The translations under genes were made by a program, and so were the position numbers. Shown piece by piece: positions 42,646-64,000 of a stretch of 64,000 nt of DNA. The stretch is from Halapricum desulfuricans (GTDB taxonomy: Archaea > Halobacteriota > Halobacteria > Halobacteriales > Haloarculaceae), in assembly GCF_017094525.1 (NCBI RefSeq), contig NZ_CP064788.1, forward strand, positions 1,039,030 through 1,103,029. The letters are read 5' to 3'. Within the stretch, counting starts at the first letter, position 1. Each line of letters begins with the position of its first letter. Under the pieces are notes generated by a model. That model saw nothing but the letters and a program-made list of their open reading frames with translations, was not told the origin of the DNA and ran no database searches.

Positions 42646-45525
42646 CTATGCCGAATCCGGGTTCCGAATGTTCTCGACAAGAGTTTGCAGCGCAGATTCC
42701 GACAGCGGTTCGATGTCGACTTGACTCCCTGTTTCCGTGTACAAGATCGCGGTCGAGATCGCCCGCTCCGGGTACAGGGCATCCAGTACGTGGTAGTAGA
42801 CGCTGAGCTGCTTTCGGTACTCGGACTCGGCGTGCCGGCCGCGGTCCGTTTTGTAGTCGATGATGTCGATGCTGTCTGGCGTGATGTGGAGTAAATCGAT
42901 CACGCCGGAAAGCGTGATGTCGCCACTGTCGGTCGTCATTGGGAGATACACTTGCTGTTCTGGTCGAAGCTCACCGGGCAGCGAATCGATACGTTGCTGA
43001 ACGTGTTCCTCATCAGTGTTACGTGGGACGACATCAGCGCCGAGGACGTACGCCTCTGCGAACTCGTGGACCTGCGTTCCGAATTCTGTGCCCATCCCGT
43101 CCTCGACGTCCTCGTACACTGCCGTGTCCATCAACGAATGCGGTGAGAGCTTTGTCGGACCGACCTCGTCGGGAATAGAGAGTGTAAGTGTGGCCCGTGG
43201 ATCACCAGCGATATCGGCGTCCTCGACGTCAGCGGTCCCTGGCTGAATATCGACTGGGAGTTCGTCTAAGAACGTGTTCGGATCGTCGCCGGCAGTGAAG
43301 AGGACGTGGTTTTCGGCGCGGGTAATCGAGACGTAGAGCAACCGTCGCTCCTCGTCGTACTCGCGGTTCAGACAACGAGTGAGAACGTCTGCTTTCCAGT
43401 TATCGTAGATATACGGGTCGCCATGCGCGTTGGCGAAGGTTTTGCGTTGGCGGAGGCCGGCCGCGTCGTCGTACATAATCGTCGGCGAGCGACCGCCGGA
43501 CGGTGGAAACCGGCCGTTGTTCATGTTCGCCAGGATCACGATGGGATGTTCGAGGCCTTTGGTGGCGTGAATCGTCTGGACAGTGACCGAGTTCGTCGCG
43601 GCGCTCGTGTTGACTTCGTGCGTACTTCCGTGTTCGATGCCACGCGCAATGAACCGGATCAGGTCACCGACTGTGAGCGTCGTCGTATCGCGAATCGAGT
43701 TGATTGTGTGAAGGAGGACGTCAGCTCGCGACCCATCGAATCCGTAGCGGTCGAAGACTTTCCGCATCACGCCGCCGAGACTCTCGAGTGACGCGAGTGA
43801 GTCTCGGAAGGCACGCATATCCGCAGGATACGACTCCGTCTCAAGGATGTGATCTATCTCGTCAAGGGTATAGCCGGCCCGTTCGAGAACCGGTGCCCAG
43901 CCCCGGTCGGCGTTCGAGTCGAGAATACGGAGCCACGCGAGCAGGAGCTTCGCCTGATCGGTACGGAACAGTTCGATACCGCCGTCATAGGCCATTGGAA
44001 AGTCATGGTCGTCGGCAACGGCCTGGAGTTCTCGCCCGAAATCACGCGTCCGGGTCAACACGGCGATATCGCGGTACTCCGGGTCCCGAAGCTCGCCGTT
44101 TTCGTCCCGGACCTGGTATGCAGAGTTGCCGACGACGTCTTGGATTTTCGTGAGGACAGCCTCGTGTTCGTCTTCGTGCTGGTAGGCTTCGATACGTGAG
44201 TTCTCGTGCTCGGTATTTGAGTCAAGGCTCACGATGCGGTCCTGGATCTCGTCAGCGTCGAACGAGTCGTACGTGGCGGCAGGCGTGACCAGACCCTCCT
44301 CAGAGAAATCCAGAATACGCTGCGTCGACCGGTAGTTCTGTGTCAGTTCGATCGTCTGGACAGACGAGGTATCGTAGGTGATCCGTGAGACATCATCGTT
44401 CAGATCAGCGGCGAACTGGGTGAGACGCTGGCGAAAGTCGAGAATGTTCTCGACAGCGGCATACTGAAAGGAGTAGATACTCTGTTTCCAGTCGCCGACA
44501 ACGCAGATGTTGTCGGTGCCGGCCAGCAGAAGCCCAAGCTTGAACTGGATCTCACTGGAGTCCTGGAATTCGTCGATCATCAGGTACTCGTATTCGAGAC
44601 GATCCCGGAGTGCGTGGTCCTCATAGAGGAGCACAAACGCGAACAACTGGAGGAACCCGAAATTCAGGTAGTTCCGACTAAGCGCGAATTCGAGGTACTC
44701 GAAGTACACGTCATGCACGAACCCCTTGAGGTCCTCACGATCCTCCGCAAAGACTCGCTGTGCGAGTTCCTCGGGGACCTGTTTGCCGTCGCCGCGGACC
44801 GCAGCTTTCGACGGTGCCTCCGGCAGATAGCATTTGTTCTTCCCGTACTGGTAGAGTTTCGACCGAAGCCGTGACTGTTTGCTCCCGCCGTTGCGTGGCT
44901 CGTTCAGCGTGTCGAACTGGCGCTTGAACGCCTCGAAGTCCCCGTCGAGGTACTGCCCGCTATCACGGTACCAGCCATCGCTGGTCGGGAAGACACCCTT
45001 CGAGGCCAGCTGATTGATCAAACCAAGCAACGCCAACGGATCCGAAACGACACGGATCAGGTCGGTGTACTCGGGGTGGTCATCGACGAACTGCTCGAAG
45101 AATTCACTGAACAACGCTTCTTCGACGATATCGTCTTCGATGATACGCGTCGAGCTCGGGATCCGCTCATCAATACCGAGTCGCGTCGGCACATCAAAGC
45201 CGTGATTCTGAAGAATATCGTGACAGAGGCTGTGAAACGTTTGAATCGGCGCATCAGCGAGTTCAGCCATGCTGTAGTCACACTGGCCGACAATTCGGTC
45301 TTTCATCTCCGTTGCCGCGTTTCTGGTGAACGTGATCAGCAAGATGTCATCGGGCGAGGCGTCAGTCGTCGCCAGGATATTCGCGTACCGGCGAGTAATA
45401 GCGAAGGTTTTGCCCGTGCCTGCACCGGCATCGACGAGATAGGTTCCGTCAAGGCTCTCGATGAGTTTCGTCTGTCCGGCGTTCGGCGTCGGCCGGTCAG
45501 GCTGTTCAGACGAGACGTTGCTCAT
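42646..45525 (-). CDS. UvrD-family helicase with C-terminal RecB-type nuclease (AddA-like)
   Basis: 959 residues. SF1 helicase motifs in order: I LVDAGAGTGKTFAITRRYAN, Ia LITFTRNAATEMKDRI, II YLMIDEFQDSSEIQFKL, III VVGDWKQSIYSFQYA, IV TQNYRSTQRILDFSEE, V VTVQTIHATKGLEHPIVILA, VI EERRLLYVSITRAENHVLFT. The C-terminal PD-(D/E)XK nuclease has LSGVIDLLHIT, IIDYKTDRG and YRKQLSVYYHVL. All catalytic residues appear intact. The start overlaps the AddB-like gene by ATGA. Together they should process DNA double-strand ends for recombination, and may degrade foreign DNA. Confidence 0.9.
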   Translation of the reverse strand: MSNVSSEQPDRPTPNAGQTKLIESLDGTYLVDAGAGTGKTFAITRRYANILATTDASPDDILLITFTRNAATEMKDRIVGQCDYSMAELADAPIQTFHSLCHDILQNHGFDVPTRLGIDERIPSSTRIIEDDIVEEALFSEFFEQFVDDHPEYTDLIRVVSDPLALLGLINQLASKGVFPTSDGWYRDSGQYLDGDFEAFKRQFDTLNEPRNGGSKQSRLRSKLYQYGKNKCYLPEAPSKAAVRGDGKQVPEELAQRVFAEDREDLKGFVHDVYFEYLEFALSRNYLNFGFLQLFAFVLLYEDHALRDRLEYEYLMIDEFQDSSEIQFKLGLLLAGTDNICVVGDWKQSIYSFQYAAVENILDFRQRLTQFAADLNDDVSRITYDTSSVQTIELTQNYRSTQRILDFSEEGLVTPAATYDSFDADEIQDRIVSLDSNTEHENSRIEAYQHEDEHEAVLTKIQDVVGNSAYQVRDENGELRDPEYRDIAVLTRTRDFGRELQAVADDHDFPMAYDGGIELFRTDQAKLLLAWLRILDSNADRGWAPVLERAGYTLDEIDHILETESYPADMRAFRDSLASLESLGGVMRKVFDRYGFDGSRADVLLHTINSIRDTTTLTVGDLIRFIARGIEHGSTHEVNTSAATNSVTVQTIHATKGLEHPIVILANMNNGRFPPSGGRSPTIMYDDAAGLRQRKTFANAHGDPYIYDNWKADVLTRCLNREYDEERRLLYVSITRAENHVLFTAGDDPNTFLDELPVDIQPGTADVEDADIAGDPRATLTLSIPDEVGPTKLSPHSLMDTAVYEDVEDGMGTEFGTQVHEFAEAYVLGADVVPRNTDEEHVQQRIDSLPGELRPEQQVYLPMTTDSGDITLSGVIDLLHITPDSIDIIDYKTDRGRHAESEYRKQLSVYYHVLDALYPERAISTAILYTETGSQVDIEPLSESALQTLVENIRNPDSA

Positions 45526-48125
45526 TGGTCGCCCTCCAACAGGAGGTCACGGTGATTCACGCGTCGGTAGTTCGGTTCGTCACGCAATTCAGCGACTGGG
45601 AACCGTTCAGCACCGCCGCGACGCGTGTTCAACTCCCCGAGGCGATCGGTGACGAACGATTCAAACGCGTCGAGGTCGTCCTCGAAATAGTTCTGGTTCC
45701 GGATGCTGATCAGTTCGCGGATCGCTTGTTGACACCCTGTCTCGACGTACTTGTAGTCGCCGACGGCGTCTTTCATACGATGTTCGAGCGCTGTCCCGAA
45801 CGGTGAGTCGATAACGTCGTCGCTATCGCGGGTCTTCGGGAAGTCCGCCGCTTCGAACACTGCCACGTAATCATCATACGCCACCTGTGAGAGAGTCTTC
45901 TGGCACTTCTGCGAGCCCTCATCTCGCAACCGTTCAAAGACGGCTCGCTGCTGGATATACTCGTCATACGGAGTCGGGTAGTAGGTGATCTCAGTGAGCG
46001 TGTCAGATAGCTCTCCTTCGCCCCGGACGACGTCGTCGACATTTTCGAGGAAATGCAAGAAGACGAACTCAAGCTGCTCATTGGGGTGTTCCGTGCGCTG
46101 GTGGGTAAGATACAGCAGTGCCTGGAAGTTCGGCGTGTCGGAGATCCCCTCCAGCGCAGAGTTCTTGACGACTTTCGTGGCCGACTTCTTCGATCCCGAT
46201 TTGTAATCGACGAGTCGCGTCGCTGACTGGACAAGGTCGATTTTCCCTTTCACACCGACGTCTTCGTTCTCGAACCACCGCTCGGTCAGGTCTGAATCGA
46301 CAGATCGGTCGTAGTATGCCGCGAAATCGTTTTGCTGCCACGACTGTGTTTCGACGGCAATATTGCCAGTCTCTGGCCGATTCTCGTCGAGAAATGCCAC
46401 GATGTTCTCGACCCCGACACGGTACCGTGTCCGGCGTACGTCCCGATCAACGTCGCGTACGAACGGCTCCATCTCGGCGACCATGAAATCGACGACCTCG
46501 TCTAGCCCGCGTGCGGCGATCACCTCAGGATGGTGAACGTAGAACTCGGCGAAGTCGTGAAAGAGATTCCCTTCGCGGAAGTAGTCCTTGTTTGGCGAGT
46601 CCACGAGCCGGTCGAAGAAGTAATCGCGAGGCGAGTTGACATAGGTACTCAGACCCGATTGACTGATCGTCGTGAGCTCAGTCGGTTCAACCGAGACTGC
46701 GTCGTTCCCGAACGGTGTCTCGCTCTTGATGCCATCGCGGGGAGCAGCATATCGTTCGGCATCGAGATCGGTGAATCGAGTGAACGACGTATCCAATAAC
46801 TCCTCGAAGTAGAGACACGGTGTGACAGGGCTTCCGCCGACGGTATCGCGGACGAGGTAATACTGCGCGGCGCCGTTCTGGAGAAGCAGCTGGAACTGCC
46901 GGATATGGCGGTCGTATTCAGCATCGCGATCGACCCACGGCCGCCGCAGTGGTGACCTTGTCCACCCATCGTCCAGCCCCAGATAAAACACGAGCGGCCG
47001 GTCAACGTGTGTCGCCGATTTCGCGTCTGCAAGCAACACTCCCTTGTTCTCCCGCGACACTGGAACCTCGTAGGACTGGAGATAGAACTCCAAGTCATCA
47101 ACGCGCGCTTCAGTAATTGGGTGCGTTGCGATCCCGAGCGACGCTAACTCGTCATGAAATGCCTCGAACTCGGTACGCAGCATCGATTCGTACTCGGAAA
47201 GCGCACGTTCAAACGACCACGTACCGCTCTCGACGGCGTCACAGAACGTCTGAAAACGAGTTACTTCTGGGACATCGAGCGAGTGGAGCCGCTTTTCGTC
47301 GTGATCGACATCGAGGTCGAGCCCGATATGCTGTAGTACGGGCTTGATATCCGAGACTCGGACATCCTGCCCACGGAATGGGGCCCGGAGCAGGTTCACG
47401 AACGCACGGTGATCCGGATCGTCCAGAAAGCCCGGCCCACCGTAGAACGGGATACCAGCGGCGTCGAATGCGGACTCGACGAGCGTGGAGAACTCACTCC
47501 CGGCATCAAGCACGACCGCGGTGTTGTCAGCATTGGCAGGGGAAATCGTGTCGAGAAGGGCCCCGACGATGTCTGCGGAGGTATCGAAAAGGCGGAACGG
47601 TGGCTGATCGAACGCGTCATCGGTGAAGCGATCGATTTCGGTGTACTCTGACGGGAGGATCGACCGTTCGAGCGCCGTCAGCTGAGGATACCCGACAACT
47701 GCGAGATCGATATCCTCGTCGATCGTGAAGTCGGTGAGGTGCCGTGACGTCGTATCAAGGTCGCGAGTCTGCGCAACGGCTTGCCTGACTGCTGGTGTAT
47801 TGAACTGCTCAAACTCAAGGATCCCGTCCGGTCGGGCCGTATACTCCCAGCTGTGGATGATTTCCTCACCGAGGTAGGACGCTTGCTTCCAGGAGAGGTC
47901 CGTCTCGTGAAGGAGTTCGAGAAACACAGTCCGCTCCTCGACCTGTTCGCGCCGACCGGCGGCAGCGCGACGCGGTGTTGTGGCAAAGTCGCCGAGATGT
48001 GGCCGGTCCAAGTGCCGGTTGAGAGCACTGGCCAGCGGGGCATCGGGGACGAGAACCAGATCGTATTGCTTCACCTCATCATACAGAGTTTCGAGCGGTT
48101 TTGCTCGCTGAATTGGCACGTACAC
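45522..48125 (-). CDS. AddB-like subunit: degenerate helicase fold with PD-(D/E)XK nuclease
   Basis: 867 residues. The N-terminal half lacks a Walker A but follows the AddB layout (VVLDAGSEFSTLVESAFDAA GIPFYGGPGFL; LGLDDGWTRSPLRRPWVDRD AEYDRHIRQFQLLL). The C-terminal nuclease shows VKGKIDLVQSATRLVDYKSG and NFQALLYLTHQR, the D, D-x-K and Q positions of the RecB nuclease family. The four Cys that hold an Fe-S cluster in bacterial AddB are not evident. First gene of the pair; a perfect 19-bp palindrome lies 18 bases upstream of its ATG. Confidence 0.85.
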   Translation of the reverse strand: MYVPIQRAKPLETLYDEVKQYDLVLVPDAPLASALNRHLDRPHLGDFATTPRRAAAGRREQVEERTVFLELLHETDLSWKQASYLGEEIIHSWEYTARPDGILEFEQFNTPAVRQAVAQTRDLDTTSRHLTDFTIDEDIDLAVVGYPQLTALERSILPSEYTEIDRFTDDAFDQPPFRLFDTSADIVGALLDTISPANADNTAVVLDAGSEFSTLVESAFDAAGIPFYGGPGFLDDPDHRAFVNLLRAPFRGQDVRVSDIKPVLQHIGLDLDVDHDEKRLHSLDVPEVTRFQTFCDAVESGTWSFERALSEYESMLRTEFEAFHDELASLGIATHPITEARVDDLEFYLQSYEVPVSRENKGVLLADAKSATHVDRPLVFYLGLDDGWTRSPLRRPWVDRDAEYDRHIRQFQLLLQNGAAQYYLVRDTVGGSPVTPCLYFEELLDTSFTRFTDLDAERYAAPRDGIKSETPFGNDAVSVEPTELTTISQSGLSTYVNSPRDYFFDRLVDSPNKDYFREGNLFHDFAEFYVHHPEVIAARGLDEVVDFMVAEMEPFVRDVDRDVRRTRYRVGVENIVAFLDENRPETGNIAVETQSWQQNDFAAYYDRSVDSDLTERWFENEDVGVKGKIDLVQSATRLVDYKSGSKKSATKVVKNSALEGISDTPNFQALLYLTHQRTEHPNEQLEFVFLHFLENVDDVVRGEGELSDTLTEITYYPTPYDEYIQQRAVFERLRDEGSQKCQKTLSQVAYDDYVAVFEAADFPKTRDSDDVIDSPFGTALEHRMKDAVGDYKYVETGCQQAIRELISIRNQNYFEDDLDAFESFVTDRLGELNTRRGGAERFPVAELRDEPNYRRVNHRDLLLEGDQ

Positions 48126-57316: not shown

Positions 57317-57973
57317 TTACCGACCGCGAGCGAGTCGCTCAGCGTTGTAGCTGTCGATACTGGTGTTCTCGATCCGGCGCCGTACCGCCTCGATATCATA
57401 GGAAACTCGATGCAGATCAACAGCCATCGCATCGAGATCGACGACCGCATAGGCCGCATCTGGATCCCTGTCGCGTGGCTGGCCGACACTACCGGGATTG
57501 ACGACGATCCCGTCAGCAAACACTTCGGCATACTGGACGTGCGTATGCCCGAGGACAAGCACGTCTTCGTCGTCAAGAAGCGTCGGTTCGAATGCCGCGG
57601 GTCGCGTGTAGCGATTCCGCTCTTCGGGATGATCGTGGACGACCTTCAGTCGGCCGTCGAAAAGCAGGCGCTCTCGCGGAAGGGCCGCCAGCCACGACCG
57701 CTGACCCTCCGACAGCGTGCGGCTGGCGTACTGGTCGCCTGTCTCGTATGGCTGGTCGGTGACAACGGCCCGATCGTGGTTGCCCTCCACCGTTGGAATT
57801 GACTGCCCGCGAACTATCTCGATGCACTGCCCCGGTGACGGACCGTATCCGACAACGTCACCGGCACAGACCAGTGCATCCACGTCGTCCATCTCCTCGA
57901 GGACGGCTTCCAGCGCGATGGCGTTGCCGTGGATATCTGAGAGCAGGCCGATGCGAGTCGGGTGGTCACTCAC
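57317..57973 (-). CDS. Calcineurin-like metallophosphoesterase
   Basis: 218 residues. Metal-site motifs are complete: D-x-H in LLSDIHGNAIALEAVL, GD in VCAGDVVGYGPSPGQC, GNHD in PTVEGNHDRAVVTD, His in VVHDHPEE and GHTH in VLVLGHTHVQYAEVF. Similar to YfcE/DevT-like small phosphoesterases acting on phosphodiesters or phosphoproteins. The start overlaps the stop of the ADP-ribosylglycohydrolase by four bases (ATGA). Last gene of the five-gene operon. Confidence 0.9.
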   Translation of the reverse strand: MSDHPTRIGLLSDIHGNAIALEAVLEEMDDVDALVCAGDVVGYGPSPGQCIEIVRGQSIPTVEGNHDRAVVTDQPYETGDQYASRTLSEGQRSWLAALPRERLLFDGRLKVVHDHPEERNRYTRPAAFEPTLLDDEDVLVLGHTHVQYAEVFADGIVVNPGSVGQPRDRDPDAAYAVVDLDAMAVDLHRVSYDIEAVRRRIENTSIDSYNAERLARGR

Positions 57974-58911
57974 TCGGCATCACCCCCGGTATGCTCCAGT
58001 TCGAGTAATTCGCCCGCGAGATCGCGGAGTTCGTCGGTTTCATCGATCGCGGCCAGCCACGCGTCGGGAAGCGACTCCGCGCCAAAGCGAGCGCCGGCGA
58101 CGGCCCCAGTGATCGCACCGACTGTGTCGGCGTCGCCACCAGCGTTGACCGCCCGGACGATCGCCTCTTCGACACTGTCTGCGTCAAGCGCATAGTACAG
58201 CCCCGCCTGGAGCGCATCGACGACGTAGCCACCGTTGTTGAGCTCGCTTTCCGAAACGCTGTCCGGCAGTCCCTCGACAGCGTTGACGAGCTCCGGTGCG
58301 TCTGACTGGCCGGGATAGGTCGCCGCAAGAGCGCGTCGCAACGGCTCGTCCTCGCCGCGAAGCAGACCCGCAATAGTGAGATTCAGGACGGCACAGCCAC
58401 GCTTACAGCGGGGATCCGCGTGGGTGATCGCTGAAGATTGTTCGCTCACGCGCCCGAGATGCTGCGGGTCGTCGGTGAAAGCCAGCGCGTACGGCGCACA
58501 CCGCATCACACTCCCGTTGCCGGCGTTACTACCTTCCCGTCGTGACTCCCAGACATCTTGGCCGGCGTGCTCCCACGACTCACCCTGCTGGAGACGAGCG
58601 AGGGCGTCGCGAGTCATCAAGCCAATATCGAAGGGGTCGGTCTCGTACCAGCCCACGAACCGCTCCGCGACGTCAGCGCCGTCGAAACCGCCGGCGTCGA
58701 CGAGACTGCGGGCGATCCGAAGCGCGAGTTCGGTATCGTCGGTGATCGTGCCGGGCGGTTGCCCGTGACTGCCGTCGCCGAGCATTGAGTCAACGGTGCC
58801 GTGCTGTGCCTCGATCGTCGCGGCGGATTTGAATTCGACTGGCCGGCCAAGGGCATCGCCGCAGGCTAGCCCGAGGAGACAGTCTTCCGCCTGTGAGGAG
58901 GGAATCATCAT
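57970..58911 (-). CDS. ADP-ribosylglycohydrolase (ARH/DraG family)
   Basis: 313 residues from the ATG at 58911 (second ATG next to it). It removes ADP-ribose from modified targets. Mg-site motifs are present: LLGLACGDALGRPVEF, PPGTITDDTELALRIA (T-D-D-T) and RAVNAGGDADTVGAITGAVA (D-x-D-T). RREGSNAGNGSVMRCAPYAL is also conserved. All catalytic acids are in place, so an active hydrolase is expected. No ADP-ribosyltransferase lies within the window. It is coupled to the phosphoesterase by overlap and follows the HEAT gene after 73 bases. Confidence 0.92.
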   Translation of the reverse strand: MMIPSSQAEDCLLGLACGDALGRPVEFKSAATIEAQHGTVDSMLGDGSHGQPPGTITDDTELALRIARSLVDAGGFDGADVAERFVGWYETDPFDIGLMTRDALARLQQGESWEHAGQDVWESRREGSNAGNGSVMRCAPYALAFTDDPQHLGRVSEQSSAITHADPRCKRGCAVLNLTIAGLLRGEDEPLRRALAATYPGQSDAPELVNAVEGLPDSVSESELNNGGYVVDALQAGLYYALDADSVEEAIVRAVNAGGDADTVGAITGAVAGARFGAESLPDAWLAAIDETDELRDLAGELLELEHTGGDAE

Positions 58912-58984
58912 TGGAGGTCCTGTGATCGCTTTCGATATCTGACGCGCTGTGCTACTATGTGTGCTGGAATCCTGGTAAGCGTAC

Positions 58985-59947
58985 TCATACTGGGTCAATC
59001 TCCGCAAGTGCCCACGCGATTCTGTTCCGAACGGCTTCGTTTGGCTCTTCCTGGAGACGTTCTTCGAGTGTCGCTTTCGCCTCCGACGCCTCAAGACGGC
59101 CCAGCGTCCAGCAGGCGTTCTCTCGGACCATCTCGTTGTCATCCGAGAGCAGGTCGATGAACGTCGGAGTCAGGGGATCGACCGACGCCGGGAAATCCTT
59201 AGCCACCCGTGCGAGCGTGCCACTCGCGTTGATCCGGGTCCGAGCATCGTCGACCGTGAGCAGTGCTGCGATATCATCGACGTACTGCTTGACCGTATCG
59301 GTATGGAGGTCAGCCACTTCGTAGGTCAGCGCGACGGCGTTGTTCCGGAGTTTGTAGTTGTCGGCGTCGTACAGTTCGACGAGATCCTCGAAGACGTCGA
59401 TCACAAGTGCAGAGGATGCCCTGACGGTACGGCCGAGCGCCGCTATCGCGCTCAATCGAACGTGATCCAGTTCGGACTCGTCGATGGCGATGTCGGCGAG
59501 CGAATCAGCAGCCGCTTCGGTCGCCTCGGGGACCTCTGTCGCGACCGCTGCGAGAGCGGAGACAGCATGCTGTCGTTGCTCGGCACCTTCGTCGAGCAGA
59601 GCAACGAGTGACGGGACGGCGTCGACGATATCGCTTGGGACCTCCCTGGTAATCGCAGCAAGACAACCGGCCGCCTCACGTCGGACCGACGGCCGATCCG
59701 AATCGAGATACGGTTCAATGTCTGCGACCGCCGGTGCGATGTCCTCTGGACTGGTACTGCCGATCGCGTGGAGGGTCGCCAATGCGTCGTGGAGGCCAGC
59801 GGGGTCGTCCTTCCGAAGCAATGAACGCAGGATAGGAATCGCGGGCGTGCACGCTGCTGGTCGAACCGCCGCGAGGGCGGCCAAAGCGTGGAGGGCATCT
59901 CGCTGCTGTTGGGGCGGCAACGGTTGCTGATCTAGCAGTGTCAACAC
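58985..59947 (-). CDS. HEAT-repeat protein, 5' end apparently lost
   Basis: 320 residues from a GTG at 59947 whose second codon overlaps the HAD stop (GTGTTGA). About eight HEAT-like helix pairs can be seen (LHALAALAAVRPAACTPAIP, VRREAAGCLAAITREVPSDI, VRLSAIAALGRTVRASSALV, TRINASGTLARVAKDFPASV, VRENACWTLGRLEASEAKAT). The same frame stays open and HEAT-like upstream of the GTG (DAAAALRRVADTAPNQLRLS) but has no start codon before a TGA near 60070. So the N-terminus of an older, longer gene seems to have been removed or shifted. HEAT proteins usually scaffold other proteins. Confidence 0.8.
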   Translation of the reverse strand: MLTLLDQQPLPPQQQRDALHALAALAAVRPAACTPAIPILRSLLRKDDPAGLHDALATLHAIGSTSPEDIAPAVADIEPYLDSDRPSVRREAAGCLAAITREVPSDIVDAVPSLVALLDEGAEQRQHAVSALAAVATEVPEATEAAADSLADIAIDESELDHVRLSAIAALGRTVRASSALVIDVFEDLVELYDADNYKLRNNAVALTYEVADLHTDTVKQYVDDIAALLTVDDARTRINASGTLARVAKDFPASVDPLTPTFIDLLSDDNEMVRENACWTLGRLEASEAKATLEERLQEEPNEAVRNRIAWALAEIDPV

Positions 59948-60774
59948 GGGCGAGAGCCGCAGCTGGTTCGGCGCTGTATCCGCAACCCGGCGGAGCGCCG
60001 CTGCTGCGTCGGGTTGTGTCCGGCCTGTGCGGTGACCGCTTCCGCCGACAGTGTGACGGCGTGGACAACGTCAATTGCACCGACGGGCACAGTGACCGAC
60101 TCCCCCTCGGGGACGAGTGCAGAGCAGCGAACGCCCGGCCCCGCACCCTCAGCCGAGTCCTCAACCACGGTAACGTTCCAGCACAGTCGCGTCACGTCGT
60201 CGCCGTCCTGTTCGTAGGTGATCTCGAATCCGGGCGTGTCATCGTACTTCCCTAGGAAGGATGCGAGCTGGTCAGCGTCCGCGGGCATAATCCCTGCCAC
60301 CGTCGGTAGCCCGCCATCCGTGACGAGATCGTCATCACTCACTTGCGCATCAACTGACGGGAGCGAGAGGTCGAGGTGCCCATCACGGACTGCCGGGGCA
60401 AACTCCCAGGCGTGGTAGTGCTGCCAGCCCTCGACGTCGCTCAGATCGAGGTCGTCAACGACGATATAGCGGTCGGCTGCCGGGTGCAACGCTTCGATCA
60501 GTGCCAACCGTTCCCGCCGCGTCGGGAAGCGTTCGTATCGGCCGTCCGGCTGTTTGTCGCCGAGCCAGTGGTCCCAGTCATCTGCGTGACGGCCAACGAT
60601 ATCGACGACGCCGGGAATCGCCGCTTCCTCGGCCAGATCTTGGTTTCCAATCGCGTAGACGGCGTGGTCAGTTTCGTGCGCGAGGTGACGTACCCACTCC
60701 AGCGGGACCGCCTCGTGCCGCGGATGCGGGTTGACATCGACAGTCCAGTCGCGATCGAACGCAAAGACCCACAT
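59941..60774 (-). CDS. HAD-like hydrolase (haloarchaeal type)
   Basis: 277 residues from the ATG at 60774. HAD motif I is FDRDWTV at residues 6-12 (D-x-D-x-T). Further conserved parts are HETDHAVYAIGNQDLAEEAA and RERLALIEALHPAADRYIVV DDLDL with the acidic motif. A second domain follows from about residue 150 (GIMPADADQLASFLGKYDDT; VTRLCWNVTVVEDS). The last about 20 residues (QQRRSAGLRIQRRTSCGSRP) are read out of frame over the start of the HEAT coding sequence and look accidental. The ATG shares one base with the stop of the VWA gene (TGATG). Confidence 0.8.
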   Translation of the reverse strand: MWVFAFDRDWTVDVNPHPRHEAVPLEWVRHLAHETDHAVYAIGNQDLAEEAAIPGVVDIVGRHADDWDHWLGDKQPDGRYERFPTRRERLALIEALHPAADRYIVVDDLDLSDVEGWQHYHAWEFAPAVRDGHLDLSLPSVDAQVSDDDLVTDGGLPTVAGIMPADADQLASFLGKYDDTPGFEITYEQDGDDVTRLCWNVTVVEDSAEGAGPGVRCSALVPEGESVTVPVGAIDVVHAVTLSAEAVTAQAGHNPTQQRRSAGLRIQRRTSCGSRPC

Positions 60775-62861
60775 CAGTCCCGATCGCCCGCCTGCTCGAC
60801 CGTCGGCTGGATCTCGACGCCGGCCTCGGCACACAGCGTCTCAAGCACGTCGATCTCCTGCCCCAGCGTGTCGTCACCGAGTGCGTTGGCTTCCGCGACC
60901 AGATACGCCCGCAGCGTCTTGAACTGGCGGCCATACTTTGCTGGCACTGTCAGCGGTACCGACTCGCGTTCCTGTTCGTCCGGTCTCCCGGCGTCGATCC
61001 AGTCATCGACACCTGCCGACCCGTTCACGCGTGAGTGGACGTCCTCGGCCCACGCGCGAAGCAGACCCGCATACCGGGCGAGCGCAGTCGCTTTCCGGAC
61101 GCCGCTGTGATCGAACGACGGCATATCCCGTGGGAGTTCGACGGCGACGCGCTCGGTGTGATGGCTGCCGTCGCGTTCGACCCACGACGCGACCAGATCG
61201 ACCGCACGGTCCTCGTCGGTCACGTCCAGTTCGACCAAGACGACCCCGCCGCGGGTCTCGCCGTCGGCCTTGGGCGAAGGGAACAGCGTCGTCACGTGAA
61301 TCAGCTGGTCAGTGCTGTCATTGCCGGGGGCGCCGTGGACAGCGGCGATCTCGCAGCCCTCCGCATCGAGTTCCAGCTGGAGATCGAACACCAGTGGCGA
61401 CACCATGTACGCGAACTCCTCGCCGAGGCGTTGCTCGAACCCCTCGACGGAGTGGACAAAGTAGTGGTTCGCACCGCGGACATCTGAGACGGCGTCAGCG
61501 AGGTCGGCGTTCTCGTCGAGCCCGATCCCGAGAAACGTTGTGTGGATCCCGTCAGCAGCAGCGTCCGCGAACAACTCACGGAGTCGCGTCTCGCCGGTGC
61601 TGCCCATATTCGGCATCATATCGGTCATAAACACGACGCGGCGCTCGCTGTCGGGCTCGGCCGATGCGTCCTGCAGGAGATCCCACGCTGCCATGAAGCC
61701 GTCCTCCATGTTCGTCCCGCCGCCAGCCGACACCTCACGGATGTGTTCCCGGATCGCGTGCATATCCGTCGAGCCAACGTCTCGCAGCGGCTTGGCGACG
61801 TGGGCGCGGTTGTTGTACAGGACGACGCCCAGTCGATCCTCGTCGTCTAACTGCTCTGTAAGCGCACACAGCGCGCGAGTGGCGGCGTCGATCTTTCGCT
61901 CGCTCGACGTCTCGACCTCGCGGCGGCGGCCATGTTCGTCGTAGTAATACTCGTCGAACGGGGAGTCCATCGACCCTGAGACATCCACCACCGCCACCAG
62001 ATCGAGGCGCGGCCGCTCGAAGTCATCAGTCGACAGCGTTGAGTCCAGCCCGACGCTCAGAACATGTTCGGTCTCAGTGGTGACGGGATCTTTCGAGACG
62101 CCGGCAGCGTACCGGGGCGCGAACAGCGCGTCCGTCTCGGCGCGGCGGCCGCCCGTCTCGAAATAGTAGTCGTAGAACAATCCCTCCGTGCTGATCGCCC
62201 CGGGCTGGGGCGTGTACCCTTGCTCGATGTTCTCCCGAAAGTTCGTCGCGTCTTTCCCGCCGCCAGTCGCCAGTCCTATCGTGTCTGACGACGATGCCAT
62301 CATCGAGTGTTCCATACTCTCGATGCTAGGCTCGCGCTCCCCGTCGGCCGGGAGATGCAGGTCGCGGTCGTCGAAGACCTCCCCACAGTTGTCACAGACG
62401 TAGTCCGGCGCCGTATGTCGCGTTCGGTCGTCCCGATCCATCGGCTGCCAGTCGTCAACTGTCTCGCGGTCAGCGCGAACGAGCCGCGTCTGCTCTGTCG
62501 CGATGAAAAACGGGTCGTCGATCCCCAACTCCGCAACAGCCTGTCGAAGTGATGCCGGTGCGGCGTCGATCGCGACGGCGTGGCGCAGTTGTGCGTCGCA
62601 GTTCGGGCAGCGTTCGTCGCTCGGGTCCGCGGCGGCTGTCGGCACGCAGTACCGCACCTCGGTGACCTCGTAACGGCGTCCGGTCTGGAGGCCGTGGACG
62701 TCGCAGTCGGCAGCGGCTGGAACCAGCAGCGTCTGCGTCGTTTCGTCGCCATCGAACGACAGTCGATGGACGCTGGTTCCATCGATGTTGATCGTGCGGC
62801 GCGTGATGAAAGCACCCGTGAAGTCGGTCCGCTCGCCGTCGGCGGTATGTGTTGCTGACAT
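60774..62861 (-). CDS. VWA-domain protein with zinc ribbons
   Basis: 695 residues from the ATG at 62861, preceded by GGGGAGG as a Shine-Dalgarno sequence; upstream in-frame extension is unlikely. Two CxxC units lie at about residues 85-88 and 157-160 (CPNCDAQLRH, CDNCGEVFDD). The von Willebrand A domain is about 275-460: MIDAS residues DLVAVVDVSGSMDSPFDEYY, GGGTNMEDGF and FMTDMMPNMGSTGE are complete. The C-terminal half (VFDLQLELDAEGCEIAAVHG and ATALARYAGLLRAWAEDVHS) is VIT/Ter-like in layout. No membrane helix or signal, so cytoplasmic. First gene of the operon and divergent from a P-loop ATPase. Confidence 0.88.
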   Translation of the reverse strand: MSATHTADGERTDFTGAFITRRTINIDGTSVHRLSFDGDETTQTLLVPAAADCDVHGLQTGRRYEVTEVRYCVPTAAADPSDERCPNCDAQLRHAVAIDAAPASLRQAVAELGIDDPFFIATEQTRLVRADRETVDDWQPMDRDDRTRHTAPDYVCDNCGEVFDDRDLHLPADGEREPSIESMEHSMMASSSDTIGLATGGGKDATNFRENIEQGYTPQPGAISTEGLFYDYYFETGGRRAETDALFAPRYAAGVSKDPVTTETEHVLSVGLDSTLSTDDFERPRLDLVAVVDVSGSMDSPFDEYYYDEHGRRREVETSSERKIDAATRALCALTEQLDDEDRLGVVLYNNRAHVAKPLRDVGSTDMHAIREHIREVSAGGGTNMEDGFMAAWDLLQDASAEPDSERRVVFMTDMMPNMGSTGETRLRELFADAAADGIHTTFLGIGLDENADLADAVSDVRGANHYFVHSVEGFEQRLGEEFAYMVSPLVFDLQLELDAEGCEIAAVHGAPGNDSTDQLIHVTTLFPSPKADGETRGGVVLVELDVTDEDRAVDLVASWVERDGSHHTERVAVELPRDMPSFDHSGVRKATALARYAGLLRAWAEDVHSRVNGSAGVDDWIDAGRPDEQERESVPLTVPAKYGRQFKTLRAYLVAEANALGDDTLGQEIDVLETLCAEAGVEIQPTVEQAGDRD

Positions 62862-62942
62862 AGGTTCCTCCCCTTTGAGTCGTACCGGCCGCACTGTCTC
62901 CGGAACAGTTGGATGACGCTCCCATCCTGAACAAAGACATCC

Positions 62943-63048
62943 TATTGTGCCTTTTCTGGCCGGGACACCCAACAATATGTTCTTTAGTGGCATAAATCCT
63001 TCGACAAGGGGAACACTATTGTGGGTAGCGCTCTGATAACGGACAATA
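62943..63048. promoter_or_regulatory. Divergent promoter region with paired TATTGT/ACAATA repeats
   Basis: In the 263-bp gap between the VWA and ATPase genes, TATTGT at 62943 and 63017 faces ACAATA at 62972 and 63043. This gives two inverted pairs, 23 and 20 bases between arms. CTATTGTG is exactly repeated at 62942 and 63016. The arrangement suggests shared control of the two transcripts. Confidence 0.4.
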
Positions 63049-63124
63049 CGATGTCGATAATCCGGCGGACGGATCAACGCGACGACCACCCAGCAATCCA
63101 CAGCTACGGCTGCGTCACATAGCC

Positions 63125-64000
63125 ATGTCTGCCGACATTCAGGACGCGCTGGTCCGGGCGCTCGCCGACCACAACCCGTGGTGGCAAGCTGGCGCCGCAG
63201 CACTTCAGGGAGAGCTGCCCGACCGGCAGAAAAGCGACTTCTACCACCTCGTACGGCCCGACGAAGCGTCGACGCAGTTCGAGGACGCGACGGTGTTCGG
63301 GCTCGTCGGTCGCCACGGCGTCGGCAAGACCACGCTCCTCAAGCAATTCATCCACCTCCAACTGCAGCAGGGTGTCGAGCCGGAGCGATTCCTCTACGTC
63401 CCCTTCGACGCAAACGCGCTCTATCAGCTCCACTCGGCCGACCAGCTCCAGCAGGTCTTCCGGTATTACGAAAGCCGTGTCCTCGGCCGGCTCGACGACC
63501 CGGCTCCACACTTCGTGATCCTCGACGATGTCCACCGGGTCGCCCACAGCGATAAACGGAGTGTCGATGGCTGGGGCACCGTCGTCCGCGACGCCCTCGC
63601 TGACGAACAAGGTCGAAACGTCGTCGTCGCGGCCGGCGCGACCGAGCAGGTCAACGGTGAACTCGACCGCGTCGGCTTCGACTCTGACGCGTACCACACG
63701 CAGCCGATCCTCCCCGAGAAATTCCGTGATTACATCTTCACCCGCTATCCCGATCTCGAAGACGGGGACACGCGTGTCAGTCCGACCCCGCTGCGCGCCG
63801 GCGACGGCAGCCTGCCGCACGCGCTCGAAACCGGCGAGACAGAGGCACTCGTGGAGACGCTCCGCGACCAGCACCAACGTGTCGCAGACGTGTCTCGCCG
63901 CCTCCAGTCCCAGGTCGCTCACTATCTGACGCTGGGCGGCGTCCTCAGCTACGTTGCGGACGGTTCTGCCGTCGATGCCTCCGACATCGGGGCCGACGCC
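63125..64000 (+). CDS. P-loop ATPase, 3' end beyond window
   Basis: ATG at 63125, open to the right edge (292 codons). Walker A is VFGLVGRHGVGKTTLLKQFI (about residues 57-76) and Walker B is PHFVILDDVHRVAHSD (about residues 127-142). The sensor-like strand NVVVAAGATEQV and the following YHTQPILPEKFRDYIFTRYP resemble AAA+/STAND-type ATPases that bind DNA or partner proteins. The rest of the protein is not seen, so the family cannot be fixed. It is divergent from the VWA-HAD-HEAT-ARH-phosphoesterase operon. Confidence 0.82.
   Translation, partial: MSADIQDALVRALADHNPWWQAGAAALQGELPDRQKSDFYHLVRPDEASTQFEDATVFGLVGRHGVGKTTLLKQFIHLQLQQGVEPERFLYVPFDANALYQLHSADQLQQVFRYYESRVLGRLDDPAPHFVILDDVHRVAHSDKRSVDGWGTVVRDALADEQGRNVVVAAGATEQVNGELDRVGFDSDAYHTQPILPEKFRDYIFTRYPDLEDGDTRVSPTPLRAGDGSLPHALETGETEALVETLRDQHQRVADVSRRLQSQVAHYLTLGGVLSYVADGSAVDASDIGADA

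Follow-up and report, generated by a model that had tools for sequence, protein, structure and literature searches.

Organization of the locus

A set of leftwards-transcribed genes and a divergently transcribed ATPase gene occupy the right end of a 64,000 bp stretch of the Halapricum desulfuricans genome (2.89 Mb, a single contig; the whole stretch, G000:C1:1039030-1103029, is referred to here as the window), and comparison with other haloarchaea indicates that together they are very probably a conserved, defence-linked cassette. Sequence past position 64000 was read from locus L006, for which the window position equals the L006 position + 53970. The original prediction, made from the letters of the window alone, described a six-gene locus of five minus-strand open reading frames (ORFs) and the ATPase; all of these are present at the positions claimed, but the gene count is one too high, as the HAD and HEAT parts are encoded in a single ORF of about 590–650 amino acids (aa) in nearly all relatives. 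The ATPase had also been described as cut off at position 64000, and it does run on, its complete form of 523 aa extending 696 bp past the window end. The genes of the locus are as follows:

63125..64000, plus strand, continuing past the window end (L006:9155-10726): ATPase with AAA_14 and DUF4143 domains, 523 aa when complete (Pfam, ORF)
60774..62861, minus strand: VWA protein, 695 aa, with two CxxC zinc-ribbon-like pairs and a metal-ion-dependent adhesion site (MIDAS) motif (PF13519, 5e-13)
58985..60774, minus strand: HAD-HEAT gene, split into ORFs 60774-59941 (HAD-like plus linker) and 59947-58985 (HEAT), as judged from the ORFs of relatives
~60021, minus strand: one-base deletion splitting the HAD-HEAT gene (alignment to Halapricum desulfuricans pHSR-Est01)
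57970..58911, minus strand: DraG-type ADP-ribosylglycohydrolase (ARG), 313 aa, with both metal-site motifs (TDDT, GGDADT) intact (PF03747, 2e-79)
57317..57973, minus strand: YfcE-like metallophosphoesterase, 218 aa, with intact metal motifs (PF12850, 7e-24)

The VWA gene starts at the ATG at 62861 and, as had been noticed, overlaps the HAD-HEAT gene at 60774 through TGATG. The gap ahead of the ARG gene is exactly the reported 73 bp (58912-58984), and the ARG and phosphoesterase genes overlap by four bases, which are GTGA instead of the ATGA first given. Pfam matches bear out the family assignments of the VWA, HEAT (PF13646, 9e-21), ARG and phosphoesterase proteins, and the closest PDB relatives of the ARG are DraG proteins (1e-40), with the key residues of its motifs near-invariant across 17 members. 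The HAD part was assigned by motifs only; it has no match in Pfam or NCBIfam, sequence searches of the PDB gave no HAD protein, and it is called HAD-like from residues that are invariant across 17 homologues (D7-x-D9-x-T11 and D107-D108-x-D110) together with the alpha/beta order of the structural model. A Foldseek comparison using the entire HAD-HEAT model returned mainly HEAT/ARM proteins and is uninformative on this part.

Compared with Halapricum desulfuricans pHSR-Est01, the window has one base fewer near 60021. The final ~26 codons of the HAD ORF, beyond this point, are therefore read in the wrong frame, and a different frame encodes the HEAT part; two more gaps, near 59755-59761, cancel each other. 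The GTGTTGA reported as an overlap of separate HAD and HEAT genes is indeed there, but is a scar of this deletion rather than a gene junction. Because the HEAT codons beyond the deletion are still constrained (ratio of nonsynonymous to synonymous substitution rates, dN/dS, of 0.17–0.26 in three comparisons), the frameshift arose recently, reflects a sequencing error, or is tolerated. HAD and HEAT are also two ORFs at a distant locus in another family (L137), and a split gene is therefore not proof of inactivity and may work in this form. The HEAT part and linker share only 42–50% identity with genome G002, compared to 78–84% for the HAD domain, ARG, VWA and phosphoesterase; this faster divergence fits target recognition in an arms race, and relaxed constraint would look similar.

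The ATPase matches AAA_14 (2e-10) and DUF4143 (4e-14), has the Walker A motif GRHGVGKTT, and is encoded by the sole DUF4143 gene found in the window's genome. DUF4143 is among the PD-(D/E)XK folds, and AAA_14/DUF4143 ATPases carry a winged helix. In this protein PVPVALAYR occupies the place expected for the ExK signature, which is missing. The suggestion that the VWA protein and ATPase form a chaperone-type pair did not hold, since the ATPase is of the DUF4143 type and not the MoxR-type partner of VWA proteins; a MoxR-vWA chaperone pair was rejected on this ground.

Conservation and distribution of the cassette

Gene neighbourhoods were read around homologues of the VWA, HAD and ATPase proteins in the family, the order and named records; genes in the fetched loci were called by a simple codon-usage script, and some starts and short ORFs will therefore be wrong. 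The co-occurrence of ATPase, VWA and ARG genes proposed as a check is apparent, with these genes forming one locus across genera. The canonical order is (helicase), ATPase divergent from VWA, HAD-HEAT, ARG, (phosphoesterase, c10), CARF, PIN, (AddB-like, UvrD), where members in parentheses are variable, c10 is a family named here, and the ARG slot may hold a longer form of 616 aa that has an additional C-terminal domain. Among 45 HAD loci in 43 genomes, the HAD gene adjoins VWA in 25 and ARG in 25, the ATPase accompanies it in 25, a phosphoesterase is found in seven, and a CARF gene lies within 8 kb in 19.

The ATPase is divergent from the VWA gene in 29/29 loci at spacings of 195–399 bp, which is beyond chance; these are 29 of 34 ATPase loci, and in three more HAD-HEAT adjoins the ATPase. 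Departures from the canonical order include a minimal ARG-HAD(-HEAT) pair without ATPase or VWA in Halogeometricum, Halobacterium, Halosimplex, Halolamina, Natrinema and Halococcus, and Haloglomus-type loci that contain the ATPase, HAD-HEAT and a TerY-like vWA protein without an ARG.

Of 392 genomes sampled from the order, 54 contain the HAD family, which has a patchy distribution and is frequently on plasmids, as illustrated by the near-complete cassette on plasmid pHSR-Bgl01 of H. desulfuricans HSR-Bgl; a complete copy is present in Salinibaculum sp. KK48. The HAD family is absent from the phylum sample outside Halobacteriales, all 25 loci in a scan of one genome per species (84,980 species) are haloarchaeal or archaeal, and a HAD-HEAT query found no relatives in IMG/VR viral contigs. 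As far as sampled, the cassette is restricted to Halobacteriales.

A shared promoter with paired operators

The short promoter region thought to be shared by the ATPase and the minus-strand genes is 263 bp long and contains these features:

62862..63124, intergenic: divergent promoter region between ATPase and VWA genes, 263 bp
63038..63059, no strand: predicted operator site 1, palindromic, 16.6 bits (motif model)
62932..62953, no strand: predicted operator site 2, 15.3 bits, 106 bp from site 1 (motif model)
62992..63003, minus strand: conserved CGAAGGATTTAT, B recognition element (BRE)/TATA-like, putatively serving the VWA operon by its position between both operators

A palindrome with a ACATCGCGATGT core is common to 25 non-redundant ATPase/VWA intergenic regions, with a Gibbs score of 364 compared to 161–165 in shuffles. 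As a rule there are two copies, separated by 106 bp (about ten helical turns); in some cases a weaker third one lies about 105 bp beyond them. The pair is present at 36 of 38 ATPase loci, and every pair spaced by 104–107 bp is upstream of this ATPase gene in 2.07 Mb of haloarchaeal sequence, a set of overlapping loci fetched for this study that is biased and not equivalent to whole genomes. Single sites scoring at least 17 bits number 61 upstream of the ATPase and two elsewhere in the same sequence, and one of these two lies ahead of a HAD-HEAT gene on a contig of insufficient length for an ATPase to be seen. The motif model was trained on many of the scanned loci, and the window sites are not in the training list; the score of the window pair was reached by none of 2000 promoter shuffles, and its sum of 31.9 bits is among the lowest pair sums (30–33 bits). 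Six untrained loci without VWA (L047-L049, L075, L106, L116) contain the pair in five cases and a strong single site in all six, showing that the operator pair tracks the ATPase; because the operators follow the ATPase whatever the gene opposite, the ATPase is the best candidate for the protein that binds them.

Defence context and the reduced window copy

The suggestion of an anti-phage role is supported by the neighbours in relatives, which are defence-type genes: CARF and PIN, PD-(D/E)XK, UvrD helicase, DrmE, and DpnII- and AspBHI-type restriction genes. The CARF proteins match CARF_m1 (2.5e-57) and share an invariant DVTPGRKFMS, and their PIN-like partners have conserved acidic positions. 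The CARF_m1/PIN, AddB-like/UvrD, DrmE and restriction genes, the plasmid locations and the patchiness together argue that the cassette is a conflict system.

In the window this downstream part is reduced. No remnant of CARF, PIN or c10 is found within the window, and CARF has no match anywhere in its genome. The helicase-nuclease pair is present at a distance:

45522..48125, minus strand: AddB-like PD-(D/E)XK protein, c11 family, after the PIN gene in relatives (homology)
42646..45525, minus strand: UvrD-type helicase, partner of the AddB-like gene (homology)

These two genes lie ~9 kb downstream of the core on the same strand with unrelated genes between, and directly follow PIN in several relatives. 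The simplest reading is that c10, CARF and PIN were lost with a rearrangement in the window copy. The c10 protein has no Pfam match, and its structural model (predicted local distance difference test, pLDDT, 54) is of too low quality for a comparison with ARPP or TY-chaperones.

Relationship to described systems

No account of this gene combination was found in the literature searched, as the original prediction had anticipated; the 2020 CARF classification lies outside that search. We regard the cassette as an archaeal variant of the ARG-centric host systems, the closest described kind. These are bacterial systems predicted to undo viral ADP-ribosylation (Iyer, Burroughs, Anantharaman, Aravind 2022, PMC9503650, section 3.8), and comprise an ARG, a phosphatase, a vWA chaperone and nuclease/helicase partners with no ADP-ribosyltransferase (PMC9503650). 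Both have an ARG with intact metal motifs and a conserved core with exchangeable modules. Their calcineurin-like or HAD phosphatases correspond to the metallophosphoesterase that overlaps the ARG here and the HAD-like protein (by motif) that adjoins it, their vWA peptide chaperone to the VWA protein with a MIDAS motif adjoining HAD, and restriction-endonuclease-fold nucleases and helicases are variable partners in both. No ADP-ribosyltransferase is visible in the cassette, as first noted: there is none among the Pfam-scanned cassette proteins or the neighbours listed, and a search of the window's own genome, limited to DarT with other ADP-ribosyltransferase families not searched, was negative. 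The cassette differs in coming from Halobacteriales rather than bacterial lineages, in having no recognized Nudix/WYL, rhodanese-phosphatase or ARPP, and in adding the DUF4143 ATPase with its two-site operator, the HAD-HEAT fusion and CARF-PIN. A Nudix or WYL transcription factor is present in about 42% of the described cases and is thus optional (PMC9503650).

Other systems share fewer parts. MoxR-vWA ternary (VMAP) systems (PMC7159879) also combine an NTPase and a vWA protein with variable effectors, but the ATPase here is AAA_14/DUF4143, the effectors are separate genes rather than vWA fusions, and no VMAP or iSTAND third component was recognized by Pfam among the cassette proteins. COG1373-type DUF4143 ATPases have the same AAA_14 and DUF4143 architecture, whereas the window ATPase is without the nuclease ExK and its gene has, in the divergent promoter, a helically phased operator pair with which it is strictly associated. 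Complete relatives resemble CARF_m1/CARF-PIN effectors (PADLOC CARF_m1; PMC4012209) in having CARF and PIN-like partner genes, but these are tied to the ARG/VWA cassette, the ATPase-bearing genomes lack Cas10, and the window genome lacks CARF. DraT-DraG systems have a similar DraG-type ARG fold and metal motifs, without the defence-type neighbourhood, and no DraT partner is seen in the cassette. Compared to the TerY-P triad, the cassette has no kinase or PP2C, and a TerY-like vWA protein only in the Haloglomus-type loci.

Proposed working of the cassette

We propose, with a probability of roughly 0.45, that the window contains, in partly eroded form, a mobile antivirus-type cassette of haloarchaea that detects and reverses the ADP-ribosylation of host molecules, and whose complete copies go on to cleave RNA. 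The ATPase would bind the palindromic operators on the same face of the DNA, loop the promoter and keep both divergent units low, until infection altered its ATP- or ligand-bound state and released the operon. The VWA protein, which putatively binds peptides in a metal-dependent way, and the HEAT arm, which evolves fast, would then recognise modified proteins; the ARG would strip ADP-ribose from them, and the HAD-like domain and phosphoesterase would process the phosphate or nucleotide products. In complete copies a nucleotide product, not made by Cas10, may activate CARF and through it the PIN-like RNase, beside the helicase-nuclease. The window genome encodes the parts for all but this last step, with HAD-HEAT frameshifted. 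The stress-signalling or anti-phage role first suggested thus gains a well-supported defence link from context, while the mechanism set out here, with ADP-ribosylation reversal as the job and CARF-PIN as its back-up, remains tentative and falls a little short of an even chance. A narrower version, in which the dead-nuclease COG1373-type ATPase is the promoter-looping switch and ADP-ribose or a derivative released by the ARG, HAD and phosphoesterase is the CARF ligand, with no Cas10 or cyclic oligoadenylate, is speculative and would be a long shot.

Several observations weigh against the proposal. The ARG is evidently not essential, being absent from several complete-looking loci (L029, L030, L036, L139) and reduced to a 128-aa remnant at L077 and L093 (L077:11392-11778, L093:12106-12492); CARF-PIN is also found away from the cassette core; the HAD-like assignment is at the level of motifs; no Nudix or WYL regulator is present in any Pfam-scanned cassette protein; and the literature yielded no experiments on any cassette member. 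The remainder of the window, used for comparison in PADLOC, itself scored some hits and is no clean negative control, because the window holds the UvrD/AddB pair. Finally, the copy in the window carries damage and may not function. That it is a non-functional remnant, which concerns the copy rather than the cassette and is compatible with any of the other explanations, is a real possibility at somewhat under even odds: the one-base deletion in HAD-HEAT, the missing c10, CARF and PIN genes and the drifted operators all point this way, but the constraint on the HEAT codons and the intact state of all the other ORFs imply that any loss happened recently or reflects a sequencing error.

The genes could alternatively represent two independent modules that share defence islands, an ARG-HAD pair with a role of its own and an ATPase-VWA module recruiting ARG-HAD, CARF-PIN and helicase-nucleases as exchangeable cargo, with no single pathway. 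The ARG-HAD(-HEAT) pairs lacking ATPase and VWA, the Haloglomus loci lacking ARG, the occurrence of CARF-PIN elsewhere and the varying cargo order are as such an arrangement would predict, but the VWA-HAD-HEAT-ARG order is fixed with tight overlaps across genera and one promoter architecture is shared, and we consider this explanation unlikely. A non-antiviral stress-response or protein-quality system, in which host enzymes are de-ADP-ribosylated much as DraG regulates nitrogenase, would suit an ARG that is most DraG-like in the PDB and VWA and HEAT domains that are general protein-binding parts; given that no DraT-like partner is seen, and that the cassette is patchy, plasmid-borne and neighboured in relatives by CARF-PIN, nuclease-helicase, DrmE and restriction genes, it appears decidedly improbable. 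Finally, an ancillary effector set for type III CRISPR or a cyclic-oligonucleotide-based antiphage signalling system (CBASS), with CARF-PIN triggered by cyclic oligonucleotides that Cas10 or a CD-NTase produces, would accord with the CARF_m1 matches and with the NCBI name 'CRISPR-associated ring nuclease' of the Halorientalis litorea CARF gene. Cas10 is present in 4/146 genomes of the family and lacking in each of the 27 that carry the ATPase, and SMODS is above cut-off in only two of these 27 (G046, G077); Cas10 or CBASS as the source of a CARF ligand is not supported, and this explanation is very improbable.

If the antivirus-type cassette is as proposed, the predicted host counter-measures against viral ADP-ribosylation would extend to archaea and be linked to a CARF sensor in genomes without Cas10, and a widespread, poorly understood ATPase family would provide a concrete regulator with a ready-made two-site operator. 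The loci make CARF ligands outside type III CRISPR testable.

Variant and related loci

Several other gene forms were seen in the fetched loci. The ARG is fused to a ~300-aa C-terminal domain at L031:3486-5336, L033:11058-12911 and L041:9348-11240, and this domain has no Pfam match above cut-off (L033 scanned); what is left in the 128-aa ARG remnants at L077 and L093 is about 30 residues from the N-terminus and a portion of the additional C-terminal domain seen in the 616-aa form. At L150 (G191:C2) a 443-aa opposite-strand gene, possibly a transposase, is inserted between the HAD and HEAT parts. Pairs of CARF_m1 and PIN genes off the core (L098-L114) are often beside UvrD or PD-(D/E)XK genes, and stand-alone, more divergent HAD-like relatives of about 140–270 aa (L118-L136) occur in other contexts with no ARG or VWA alongside.

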